DNA from: Candidatus Desulfovibrio intestinavium
Lineage (GTDB): Bacteria; Desulfobacterota; Desulfovibrionia; Desulfovibrionales; Desulfovibrionaceae
NCBI GenBank assembly: GCA_019118345.1
Contig: DWZD01000040.1
Location: 186,001-250,000, forward strand
Length of the DNA stretch: 64,000 nt
Direction of reading: 5' to 3'
The notes beneath the pieces are model-generated. The model was not told where the DNA came from. It made no database searches and worked only from the letters and a program-made list of their open reading frames with translations. Each line of letters begins with the position of its first letter. Position 1 is the first letter of the stretch. Below are positions 49,883 to 54,937 of this stretch, one piece after another. The position numbers and the translations under genes were made by a program.

Positions 49883-52345
49883 CTAGCGCGGCGCGCTCCC
49901 GCTCTCCGGCCCCCGGGGCGCGGATTCGCTGCCCGCCCGTTCCGCCGTGTGCGCGGGGCCGGGCATATCCGTGCCGTAGAGGCCCCCGGCCCCAAAGGCG
50001 GCGGACGGAGGCGGCGGCGCGGGCACCGTGGCCGCCGCAGGACGGGGCGCGGCCTGCGGCTGAACCCGCGCTTCAGTCCGGCTTTCCGGCCTGTTCTCGG
50101 CCTTGGCCGCCGCACCGCCCTTGAGCTTGTCGTCGGGGTAGACGATGCGCTGGTGGAAGATGCCGGTCAGGATGCGCTGGAAGTTCTCGCTCAGGAAATG
50201 CAGATCCTTGAAGGTCAGCTCGGATTCGTCCAGCTGGCCCTCGGAAAAGATGCCCTTGATGATGGTGTCGATATGCGAGCGGATACGCGCGGGCGTGGGA
50301 TCGGTCAGGGTGCGGCTGGAGGCCTCCACCGAATCGGCCAGCATGAGAATGGCGGCTTCCTTGGTTTGGGGGCGCGGCCCGGGATAGCAGAAGTCGGACT
50401 CGCGGGGCTTTTCGCCCAGATTGATGGCCTTCTGATAGAAGTAGCGGATGATGCGCGTACCGTGATGCTGGCGGATGATGTCGATGATTTCCTGTCCCAG
50501 GTTGTAGCGTTCGGCCAGTTCCGTCCCCTTCTTGACGTGGGAGATGAGGATGAGCGCGCTCATGGACGGCGCGAGCTTGTCGTGCTTGTTGGGGCCGCCG
50601 AACTGGTTTTCGATGAAGTATTCGGGATAGGCGATCTTGCCCGCATCATGGTAGAGGGCCGCCACCTTGCACAAGAGGCTGTTGGCGCCGATGGCCTTGG
50701 CCCCGGCCTCCACCATGTTGGCCACCACCAGCGAATGGTGATAGGTGCCGGGAATGGTGACCATGAGTTCCTGCATGAGCGGATGCTCAAGACTCATGAG
50801 TTCCATGAGGCGGAAGCGCGTACTGTAGCTGAAGGTCAGCTCCAGCACCGGACTCAGGGCAAAGAGCAGGATGAGCGACACCATGCTGTTGACAAGTACG
50901 GCCACGGCATGGGCCGGATAAAGATCCAGCGGCACACTGGAGGAAAGCAGCAGGCCCAGACAGATGATGGCCTGACCGATGGTCAGGGGGATGATGCTCC
51001 AGACCACGTCCTGCCGGTTCTGGGCGCTGGTCACGAGCCAGGTGGCCAGCATGCCGCCGAGGAAATGAAACAGGAAGATTTGATAGCCCTGCTGGAACAT
51101 GAGGGTCACGAAAAGGCAGAGCAGAAGCCCCATGGTGCAGTAGCGCCGGGCGGCAAAGACCATGGCCACCAGCCCCACGGCCCCGGCCACGGGATAGGCC
51201 ACGGCAAAGGCCGTGAGATGATTGAGATCGCTCACCACGAGGCTCAGGCCATAGAAGGCCTTGGCCCCGATGCCGAAGATCAGGAGAACGAGCGAAATGA
51301 GCAGCATGTCCTTGCAGCGCAGGGGCGTGCCCGGCTTGCCGCTGGGGGCCATGAAAAAGCCGATGGCCAGAATGAGGGAAAAGAGAAAGGCCCCGCCGGC
51401 CACGCTCCAGTGCATGCCTTCGGTGGCCTGATCATAGAGGGCCTGAATCTTGATCTGCTGTTCGCGGCTGACGCGCGCGCCCTTGCGGACGATAAGCTCG
51501 CCCTTCTGTATCTGGTAGAAAACCGGCTCCACATTTTCGGCCACCGCATTGCCGCGCTTCTGCGTGGCCTCGCGGTTGAGGGTCAGGGTCGGGGGCAGGG
51601 TGGCCGCCAGAAAGGCGCTCAGGGCGCGGCGGGCATGGGCGCTCAGGCTCTTTTCCCGCTGCATGAGCGACGAGACTTCCGCCAGAAAGGACTGCACGTC
51701 CGGCAGGCTGGTCACATCCGGGCGCAGGAGTTCCGAACCGTTGTCCAGATTGTGGATGATGGCCCCGGCCCGTCCTACCCGCGCCACACGAATATCGCTG
51801 ACAAGCCCCTCGGTCAGGCGGCTGCTGGCAAGCGGCACCAGCGTCTTGAGCAGATAGGCCTGCACTTCGGGCTGAGCCAGCTGCTGCAGGATATCCTCGG
51901 CCACGCCCGGCGACATTTCGGCGGTCAGCCGCTGCAGCACCCGTTCGGCTGAGGGCGGCGCATCCGGGGTTTCCGGCGGGCGAACGCCCCCCTCTCCCGA
52001 CAGTTCCCTGATCACGGCCAGCACAAGGCTCTGAAAATGGGTCAGCGGTTCGAGGCTGAGATCGTACACCGGCGGCTGCAGCATGAGCACCTGCTTGCGC
52101 CGGGCGGCGGTCGCCTGCGAGTCCTCCACCTGCATGTCGCGGTCGGCCACCACATCATGATCGGCCACCTGGCCGGCCACATAGAAATGGCGGCCCCCCT
52201 CGAAGTTGGCCCCGGCCAGCAGCGACAGGAGAAAAAGCGCCCCCACCAGCACAAGCAGCCCCTGCCCGCAATGATGCCGGGCGCGGATGGTGCGGACAAG
52301 CGCGGAGAAGCTAGAGGGGCGAACAGCTTTTTTCGGCGTCGTCAT
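49883..52345 (-). CDS. 7TM-HD family phosphohydrolase (PgpH-like)
   Basis: Extracellular domain, 7 TMs, then HPLMQELMVTIPGTYHHSLVVANMVEAGAKAIGANSLLCKVAALYHDAGKIAYPEYFIENQ. Confidence 0.93.
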   Translation of the reverse strand: MTTPKKAVRPSSFSALVRTIRARHHCGQGLLVLVGALFLLSLLAGANFEGGRHFYVAGQVADHDVVADRDMQVEDSQATAARRKQVLMLQPPVYDLSLEPLTHFQSLVLAVIRELSGEGGVRPPETPDAPPSAERVLQRLTAEMSPGVAEDILQQLAQPEVQAYLLKTLVPLASSRLTEGLVSDIRVARVGRAGAIIHNLDNGSELLRPDVTSLPDVQSFLAEVSSLMQREKSLSAHARRALSAFLAATLPPTLTLNREATQKRGNAVAENVEPVFYQIQKGELIVRKGARVSREQQIKIQALYDQATEGMHWSVAGGAFLFSLILAIGFFMAPSGKPGTPLRCKDMLLISLVLLIFGIGAKAFYGLSLVVSDLNHLTAFAVAYPVAGAVGLVAMVFAARRYCTMGLLLCLFVTLMFQQGYQIFLFHFLGGMLATWLVTSAQNRQDVVWSIIPLTIGQAIICLGLLLSSSVPLDLYPAHAVAVLVNSMVSLILLFALSPVLELTFSYSTRFRLMELMSLEHPLMQELMVTIPGTYHHSLVVANMVEAGAKAIGANSLLCKVAALYHDAGKIAYPEYFIENQFGGPNKHDKLAPSMSALILISHVKKGTELAERYNLGQEIIDIIRQHHGTRIIRYFYQKAINLGEKPRESDFCYPGPRPQTKEAAILMLADSVEASSRTLTDPTPARIRSHIDTIIKGIFSEGQLDESELTFKDLHFLSENFQRILTGIFHQRIVYPDDKLKGGAAAKAENRPESRTEARVQPQAAPRPAAATVPAPPPPSAAFGAGGLYGTDMPGPAHTAERAGSESAPRGPESGSAPR

Positions 52346-53309
52346 AAGCGCTCACAATTGCCCCCACCAGAGGATGCCGCACCACGTCAGCCTTGCTGAA
52401 GGCATGTACGGCAAGCCCAGGAACATCGTGCAGCACCTGCAGGGCATGCACCAGGCCGGAACGTCCGTGGGGGGTCGCGTCCCGGGCAGGCAGATCGATT
52501 TGCGTGGTGTCGCCGGTGACGACCACCCGCGAACCGAAACCCATGCGGGTCAGAAACATCTTCATCTGCTCATGCGTGGTATTCTGGGCTTCGTCCAGAA
52601 TGATGAAGGCGTCATTGAGCGTCCGGCCGCGCATGAAAGCCAGCGGCGCAACCTCGATAATGCCGGTTTCCAGCATGGACGCCACCCTGGGCTGCGGCAT
52701 CATGTCATGCAGGGCGTCGTAGAGGGGACGCAGATAGGGATTGACCTTTTCCGCCAGATCGCCGGGCAGGAAACCCAGACGCTCCCCGGCCTCCACGGCC
52801 GGACGGGTAAGGACAATGCGCTTGACCTTGTGCTGCTGCAGGAGGGAAAGGGCCATGGCCACGGCCAGATAGGTCTTGCCCGTGCCCGCCGGGCCGACGG
52901 CAAAGACCAGCTCATGGCGGCGCAGGACATCCAGATAACGCTTCTGGGCCGTGTTGCGGGCCGCCACGCTCTTGCGCGGCGTATTGACAAAGACGGCCTC
53001 GCGGAACACCTGCCGCAGATCAAGGCCCGGATCGCCGCTCAGCATGGCATAGCTGCGCAGCACGTCCTGCCGGCTGATGTCCACGCCCTCGCGCAGCAGC
53101 GCGTACAGCTGGATGAGCACATTGCAGACCCGCTGCCGCACCTGCCCGTCGGGCGCGTCCACCCAGAGATGGGAACCGCGACTGCCCAGCCGTGCGCCGC
53201 TGGCCTCGGCCAGCAGATCGAGATGCAGGTTCTGCGGGCCGAACAGCGCCGCCGCCAGCACGGGGTCGTCAAAATCCACCGTTTCCACATGTTCCGAATG
53301 CAACACCAT
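52311..53309 (-). CDS. phoH: PhoH family protein
   Basis: VGPAGTGKTYLAVAMAL; RPAVEAGERLGFLPGDLAEKVNPYLRPLYDAL; FIILDEAQNTTHEQMKMFLTRMGFGSRVVVTGD. Confidence 0.96.
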   Translation of the reverse strand: MVLHSEHVETVDFDDPVLAAALFGPQNLHLDLLAEASGARLGSRGSHLWVDAPDGQVRQRVCNVLIQLYALLREGVDISRQDVLRSYAMLSGDPGLDLRQVFREAVFVNTPRKSVAARNTAQKRYLDVLRRHELVFAVGPAGTGKTYLAVAMALSLLQQHKVKRIVLTRPAVEAGERLGFLPGDLAEKVNPYLRPLYDALHDMMPQPRVASMLETGIIEVAPLAFMRGRTLNDAFIILDEAQNTTHEQMKMFLTRMGFGSRVVVTGDTTQIDLPARDATPHGRSGLVHALQVLHDVPGLAVHAFSKADVVRHPLVGAIVSAYDDAEKSCSPL

Positions 53310-53454
53310 AGGCAGCCAACATAGCCCATTTCCCCTCCCCTGTCCATGCCGCCCTCCCCCCGGCGGCAAAGAGTTCCCCGGCACAGGTATTGCAGGCGGC
53401 ATCGGCGATCCGCCGCCGCCGTTTCGGGCGGCAAAAATTGCAGGAGTTTCCCCC

Positions 53455-54675
53455 ATGAGCATTTCCGGCCTCGGCCTCTATACCGGCAGCAGTTACCAGT
53501 GGCAGGCCCTGCAGAGCCATTCCGCCTCCGGCACAGGCGGCGGCCAAAACAGCCTCAGCAGCCTCAACGCCTACAATGCGGACATGACCAGCCAGATTGC
53601 GGGCATGGTCGAGCTGGTGCAATACGCCATGCAGGCCATGGGACTTTCCGAGGACAGCCGGGTGACCTTCAGCCAGATCACCAAGTATCAGCAGCAGCTT
53701 GAAAAGCAGTTTGACGATTCCCTCAAGAAGGCGCTGGAAGAATCCTCCATCGGCGATCTGTCCGGCCTGACCTTCACCCTCGCTCCTGACGGCACCCTGA
53801 CCGCCGCCGGCGCCACGGAAACGGATGCCGCCAAGGCGCAAGGCTATCTGGACGAGCATCCCGAACTGGCGCAGACGCTCCTGCAGCGCCTGCAGGATGC
53901 CGGCATCGAGCTGACGGAAGAACTGACCTTCTCCGTATCCTCCAACGGCACATTGAATCTGCTCAGCGGTTCCGCCAACGATCTTCAGGCCCTGCTCGAC
54001 GAACAGGCGGAACTCGTGAACGAATTGCGCGCGGGCCTCGAGGGCATCAACGTCAATCTGGACGATCTCACGCTGGTCTTTGACGATGCGGGCAATCTCG
54101 TGGCCGACGGGGATCATCCGCAGGCTTATGACATCAACAGCTGGCTGCGGCAGCATGAGGAACTGCAGGATCTGCTTGCGGCCAAGCTGGAAGAGGCAGG
54201 CATCGACCGCGCCGATGTGTCCCTTGCCCTGCCCGCCGGGGGCGGCATGACCGTCGCCCTGTCCGCCGACGACACGGCCGGGATTCAGGAAGTGCTCAGC
54301 CAGCAGAGCGAAACGGGCAAGGCCCTGTATGACGGCCTTGCCGATGTGGGCATCGATCCGGACATCACCTTTTCCCTGCAGGTGGAAAGCGACGGCAGCG
54401 TCACCATCAACAGCGCCCACCCCGATGCCGACAAGCTGCGGCAACTTTTCGAGAACAATGCGGAACTGAGCAAGCAGTATGCGCAGGTGCAGGCCCTGTC
54501 GGGCATCGAGGACGCCCGGGCCGCCCTGCAGATCAATCCTTCGGCCATGCGCACCCGCCTGCAGATGGAAACCATTGCCACATCCTGGTTTTCCAGCCAG
54601 TCCGCCAGCAGCTTCGGCACCTATTCCGGCTCGAGCGGCCTGAGCCTGCTGACCGGCCTGAACCTGAACGTCTAG
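53455..54675 (+). CDS. Repeat protein of unknown function (about five degenerate 50-aa repeats, no Cys)
   Basis: Recurring [LI]TFxLxxDGxLxxxxxxxxDxxxxQxxLxxxxELxxxLxxxLxxxGI; ends at a strong terminator. Confidence 0.8.
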   Translation: MSISGLGLYTGSSYQWQALQSHSASGTGGGQNSLSSLNAYNADMTSQIAGMVELVQYAMQAMGLSEDSRVTFSQITKYQQQLEKQFDDSLKKALEESSIGDLSGLTFTLAPDGTLTAAGATETDAAKAQGYLDEHPELAQTLLQRLQDAGIELTEELTFSVSSNGTLNLLSGSANDLQALLDEQAELVNELRAGLEGINVNLDDLTLVFDDAGNLVADGDHPQAYDINSWLRQHEELQDLLAAKLEEAGIDRADVSLALPAGGGMTVALSADDTAGIQEVLSQQSETGKALYDGLADVGIDPDITFSLQVESDGSVTINSAHPDADKLRQLFENNAELSKQYAQVQALSGIEDARAALQINPSAMRTRLQMETIATSWFSSQSASSFGTYSGSSGLSLLTGLNLNV

Positions 54676-54699: not shown

Positions 54700-54724
54700 G
54701 GCGGGGGAAACCCCGCCTTTTTTT
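54700..54724 (+). terminator. Rho-independent terminator
   Basis: GGCGGGG-GAAA-CCCCGCC-TTTTTTT. Confidence 0.93.
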
Positions 54725-54937
54725 GTGCGCACTCCCCCTGTCCGGGCCGCATGCGGACGTTTCGCCCACCGTCATCGCTCAAGGCGGGGCATCCGCAAAA
54801 AAGTTTCCTTCATCCGCAAAAAAAGGGGTGACAAGCCCCGTTTCTCTGCCTATTCATGGGCCATACCCGCCCCTTTTTTCGTCGGCCCGGCGGGCAAGAC
54901 AGGCCGATGCCACCGCATCCCCACAAAGGAGCATCCA

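Follow-up and report, generated by a model that had tools for sequence, protein, structure and literature searches.

The locus raises the question of what a protein built of internal repeats and free of cysteine does in a Desulfovibrio cell, and why related genomes keep its gene or lack it. The window, that is, the whole 64,000-nucleotide stretch of Candidatus Desulfovibrio intestinavium analyzed here, carries the gene at 53455..54675 (+), and the open reading frame (406 aa plus stop) together with its homologs marks the product as a member of an unnamed Desulfovibrionales family. Translation is assigned to the ATG at 53455 on the basis of an AGGAG ribosome-binding site (53442..53446, +) and of an MSIS-type N-terminus that is conserved in relatives; an upstream ATG at 53077 also lies in open frame with this ORF. 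Beyond the stop codon, a hairpin resembling an intrinsic terminator (GGCGGGG, loop, CCCCGCC, then a T run) occupies 54700..54725 (+).

A preliminary description, made from the letters of the DNA alone, had placed the gene divergent from phoH-pgpH-ybeY, and this is how it lies in the window, with pgpH and ybeY coming after phoH. The same placement occurs in most genus members with phoH in the examined flank and in genera g21, g26 and g17, and in one genome (G135) the gene is divergent from ybeY. The PhoH frame as listed, 52311-53462 (-), overlaps the start of the repeat-protein gene; because PhoH homologs align only from about residue 50, the true start is probably further in, near 53309, which would leave an intergenic region of about 145 bases. 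The neighbors of the repeat-protein gene are non-flagellar, with the exception of G225, where fliR is close by. In another genome (G243), two family genes stand in tandem (L085, 5886-7256, -), indicating a local duplication.

Searches for known relatives bear out the earlier statement that the family is not a known one, in that no curated family or fold match was obtained in Pfam, NCBIfam, PDB or Foldseek. Sequence searches of Pfam, NCBIfam and PDB returned matches at chance level only; Foldseek, run with the full-length model (pLDDT 62) and with a two-unit model (pLDDT 82), gave none at E <= 0.001 in PDB, and the two-unit model had no match in the viral library. Neither the window protein nor the family members carry Flagellin_N, Flg_bb_rod or a similar Pfam domain. 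The hook-length control protein FliK is flagellar, as is the role proposed below, but the match of the window protein to it is not significant (Flg_hook, PF02120: 10.1 bits against a Pfam cut-off of 29.8, E 0.74), and a clear FliK is encoded elsewhere in this genome, on contig C32; we therefore rejected this identity. Those relatives that carry a name, at about 70% identity, come from uncultured Desulfovibrio. A plasmid search gave two weak alphaproteobacterial matches, both to one paralog only and in an uninformative context.

A profile search recovered the family in 125 of 247 Desulfovibrionales genomes, distributed over 27 of 51 genera, and in a phylum-wide sample only one match fell outside the own genus; the family is almost confined to Desulfovibrionales. 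What we see is a real, previously unnamed protein family that is tied to flagella in this order. In the same 247 genomes, with flagellin (PF00669) as the sole marker of flagella and the comparison decided upon once the data had been inspected, flagellin was found in 215 genomes, and 124 of the 125 carriers of the family have it, the exception being a fragmented genome. Within the own genus, the gene is present in 36/36 flagellin-positive and 0/11 flagellin-negative genomes (Fisher 6e-11). In a first, smaller sample of the genus (37 genomes), only two flagellin-positive genomes were without a hit (G019 and G020); both assemblies are incomplete, and phoH was likewise not found in either. Across the order, 91 flagellin-positive genomes have no detectable member, including the whole sampled genera g14 and g31 and most other families; therefore the protein is not a core part of the flagellum and is not required for flagella as such.

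An association of this kind could also arise indirectly, if host-restricted lineages had shed the gene as part of a wider gene loss and its promoter-like site (described below) served some other function. To assess joint changes, we used a PhoH tree as a stand-in for the species tree, with 51 genomes, 40 with the gene and 11 with neither the gene nor flagellin. The tree forces at least five changes of the presence/absence label, each of which may represent a loss or a gain; one non-carrier (G008) stands close to the clade of the window genome. All 11 absences are flagellin-negative genomes that retain phoH. Some flagellin-negative genomes are indeed reduced (1.4-1.6 Mb), as an indirect link would have it, but most of those in the tree measure 2.0-3.2 Mb, and flagellin-positive genomes of 1.7-2.1 Mb retain the gene. 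Of 16 flagellin-negative genomes, 15 were found to have the sigma54 factor RpoN; this argues against an indirect link as well and leads us to reject sigma54 loss as a general cause of gene loss. Taken with these points, we regard the indirect explanation as very unlikely. In the remaining flagellin-negative genome, G030, the RpoN DNA-binding domain was not found. The phoH genes of two flagellin-negative genomes, G030 and G188, each contain one in-frame stop (L135, L138), and G188 also has a weak, remnant-like family match near phoH (E 3e-4).

The upstream region points in the same direction. A site resembling a sigma54 (-24/-12) promoter, CGGCACAGGTATTGCA, is located 76 nt 5' of the ATG (53379..53394, +). 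It was first noticed by visual inspection of the window and of relatives and scored afterwards, with a consensus chosen post hoc, hand-set weights, obligatory GG and GC, and a search range of 150 bases upstream. Equivalents are found upstream of 46 of 52 homologs, mostly 48-106 bases 5' of the ATG and typically at about 75 nt, as compared with 7/52 on the opposite strand and 0-1/52 inside the gene; at a stricter threshold of 20, the upstream count is 29 and the controls give 0, 0 and 0. The shuffle fractions for these sites come from mononucleotide shuffles, in which dinucleotide composition is not kept, and the strand and in-gene controls are the better guard. Membership of the gene in the flagellar regulon is, as judged from sequence, well supported.

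A second element, supportive but weaker as regulon evidence, is a putative activator box. Rajeev et al. (PMC3333781) describe DVU1063 as homologous to FlbD, print its site as GGCAxxxxTGCC, and note its resemblance to the Caulobacter FlbD site, in which the spacer is five bases. Such a box is present at the window gene, GGCA-AAAAT-TGCA (53430..53442, +), which at -25 matches GGCA-N5-TGCC at 7/8 positions (shuffle fraction 0.07). Matches of 7-8/8, mostly at -22 to -26, occur in most long-form orthologs of the genus; in many other genera the match is weak or lacking. Even exact boxes are frequent enough to arise by chance, and the box is thus supportive rather than decisive. According to Kazakov et al. 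(PMC4641369), few sites lie 40-70 bp downstream of the promoter, and these are mostly DVU1063 sites; at the window gene the distance from promoter-like site to box is about 51. A flagellin gene on C32 in this genome carries a sigma54 site, TGGCATGTGATCTGCA, a short distance 5' of its ATG, and about 110 bases further upstream lies an 8/8 box. A single-box scan of this genome gave 11 sites at <=1 mismatch, and none of the others lies at a gene recognizable as flagellar, so that the box taken alone is weak. Two further box-bearing loci of this genome, one near a TPR-like protein (L038, G000:C12:27341; 14/14) and one near a Ser/Gln-rich protein containing MNTPSLLSADTPQQ (L045, G000:C32:7704; 13/14), are possible additional members of the regulon.

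Gene order suggests a counterpart in D. vulgaris Hildenborough. In G172 the repeat-protein gene is followed by genes for a glycosyltransferase, a threonine-aldolase-type enzyme, an uncertain ORF, DnaJ and a MerR-type regulator; in D. vulgaris, DnaJ is DVU1876, DafA is DVU1875 and ClpB is DVU1874. Because the count from dnaJ in the G172 order points there, the ortholog may be DVU1880, an assignment from gene order and not sequence, with a count that is approximate because of the uncertain ORF. Kazakov et al. (PMC4641369) list DVU1880 among the flagellar targets of DVU1063. The two systems are alike in having a sigma54-type promoter, a similar GGCA...TGCC box and a flagellar association; unlike the window gene, DVU1880 is expected to encode a one-unit form, and the cited passages describe neither structure nor repeats.

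The repeats themselves were examined in an alignment of 15 five-unit orthologs, with boundaries set by eye from sequence and predicted secondary structure. The five internal repeats of about 50 aa proposed earlier were recovered, since all ten pairings of units match by hhalign (probability 84-98%, E 8e-6 to 4e-14), as compared with at most 39% for the N-terminal and 0.7% for the C-terminal region as controls. The best pairs are U1-U3 and U2-U4, and the array therefore alternates two unit types: U1 (type A, aa 102-152, 53758..53910, +), U2 (type B, aa 153-203, 53911..54063, +), U3 (type A, aa 204-252, 54064..54210, +) and U4 (type B, aa 253-303, 54211..54363, +). The initial layout needs correction at the fifth unit (U5, aa 304-357, 54364..54525, +), which is common to all family members, including the one-unit forms, and is the ancestral unit. 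It is fused to a C-terminal region, likewise conserved (aa 358-406, 54526..54672, +), with a helix at 362-381 and a Ser/Gly tail ending LSLLTGLNLNV; together the two span about 100 aa. AlphaFold predicts each unit as a beta-hairpin of two strands plus two helices, with modest confidence for the full-length model and better scores for the two-unit fragment modeled from a 14-row alignment (pTM 0.69).

Homologs examined in other genera measure about 188-225 aa and have one unit, and because this form is present across genera, the ancestral protein was, as we infer, of about 205 aa with a single unit. Among 43 genomes of the own genus, unit number is 1 in six, 3 in 19, 5 in 17 and 7 in one, with even numbers never seen, so that two, four or six units, always an even number, have been added to the one-unit form. 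These numbers are assigned by length, and in most members they are borne out by the unit profile; in some it misses weak units or picks up extra low-scoring fragments. On the PhoH tree unit number changes at least eight times. This even-only growth provides a natural length series for experiment.

Genus members also contain paralogs of about 176-234 aa (L116, 4039-4653, -; L117, 4235-4771, -; L118, 4003-4533, +; L119, 3929-4633, +). Near-consensus sigma54 sites are seen for the paralogs in L116-L121 and L125, and those of L116-L119 are each near-perfect, such as TGGCACTTATTTTGCT. Three of the latter four adjoin a RecN-like gene, as recognized by eye.

Where the product acts is suggested by its composition. 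The cysteine-free claim holds, with zero cysteine in 406 aa, and the family as a whole has 12 cysteines in 15,763 residues versus 34 in 2,077 for five neighboring gene products. The N-terminal region (aa 1-100, 53455..53754, +) begins with about 45 Ser/Gln-rich residues, probably disordered as judged by composition and by pLDDT values of 24-40 across residues 1-50, with predicted helices at 35-61 and 72-97; in 54 family members the first 45 aa are 48% Ser/Thr/Asn/Gln and 11% charged. As for the reported lack of a signal peptide and transmembrane segment, the protein has no strongly hydrophobic segment (maximum 19-residue Kyte-Doolittle mean 1.16), a result that speaks to hydropathy only. Flagellar axial proteins are likewise cysteine-poor. 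The flagellar link that the preliminary description had offered as speculation has gained support from flagellin co-occurrence, the joint differences on the PhoH tree, the sigma54 promoter-like site and the FlbD-like box.

We lean, with some confidence, towards a member of the flagellar regulon that is probably exported by the flagellar apparatus and serves as an accessory or secreted protein, with its units as a spacer. The cysteine-poor sequence and low-charge, Ser/Gln-rich N-terminus, together with regulation and co-occurrence, are what favor export, and the variation of unit number between conserved ends is what favors a spacer. A regulon protein that is not exported and works in the cytoplasm as assembly factor, chaperone or motility regulator would fit the same regulatory and co-occurrence evidence, and the soluble alpha/beta units and missing hydrophobic signal agree with it; yet the scarcity of cysteine throughout the family, and termini that are low in charge and rich in Ser/Gln, would be unusual in a cytosolic protein, and a length varying from one to seven units is odd for a chaperone, so that we consider a cytoplasmic role rather unlikely.

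On the favored reading, RNA polymerase with sigma54 would transcribe the gene along with flagellar genes, an activator, presumably of the FlbD/DVU1063 enhancer-binding type, would act from the box beside the start codon, and the flagellar type III apparatus would export the product, whose accessory or secreted function may lie at the flagellum or beyond it. Activity would reside in the conserved N- and C-terminal regions, while the beta-hairpin/two-helix units, stacked on one another, may form the spacer, lengthened by two units each time. An unannotated family, known here from at least 27 genera of sulfate reducers and their relatives, is thereby given a role that can be tested; if the protein is exported, gut Desulfovibrio would have a flagellum-linked secreted protein of a new class.

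A narrower version, not fully exclusive of the favored one, is that the protein uses the flagellar regulon and export route to reach the outside for colonization or biofilm formation and has no part in motility. Its absence from many flagellated relatives, the variable repeat number and the paralogs with their own sigma54 sites would suit such a role, for which the export of non-flagellar proteins by the flagellar system provides precedent (PMC2764114). The Campylobacter proteins of this kind, such as CiaI, follow the same proposed logic of coregulation with flagella and export without a Sec signal, although they belong to a different phylum and the likeness is one of logic, with export described there and proposed here. 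Presence of the family in many genera of varied genome size speaks against a colonization role, as does the lack of adhesin or effector similarity in the family searches, and we entertain it only tentatively. A more specific form of the favored reading, in which an exported array with no detected fold relative and growing pairwise serves the Desulfovibrio flagellum as a spacer or length gauge outside the cell, seems to us a distinctly long shot.

Tracking of unit number by FliK length was considered and rejected, as no trend is visible among three- and five-unit genomes, whose FliK frame lengths overlap. Three one-unit genomes, possibly of one clade, have long FliK frames of 889-1044 aa (G225:C17:72839-73651; G001:C134; G028:C69), and the frame in G225 has two Flg_hook matches.
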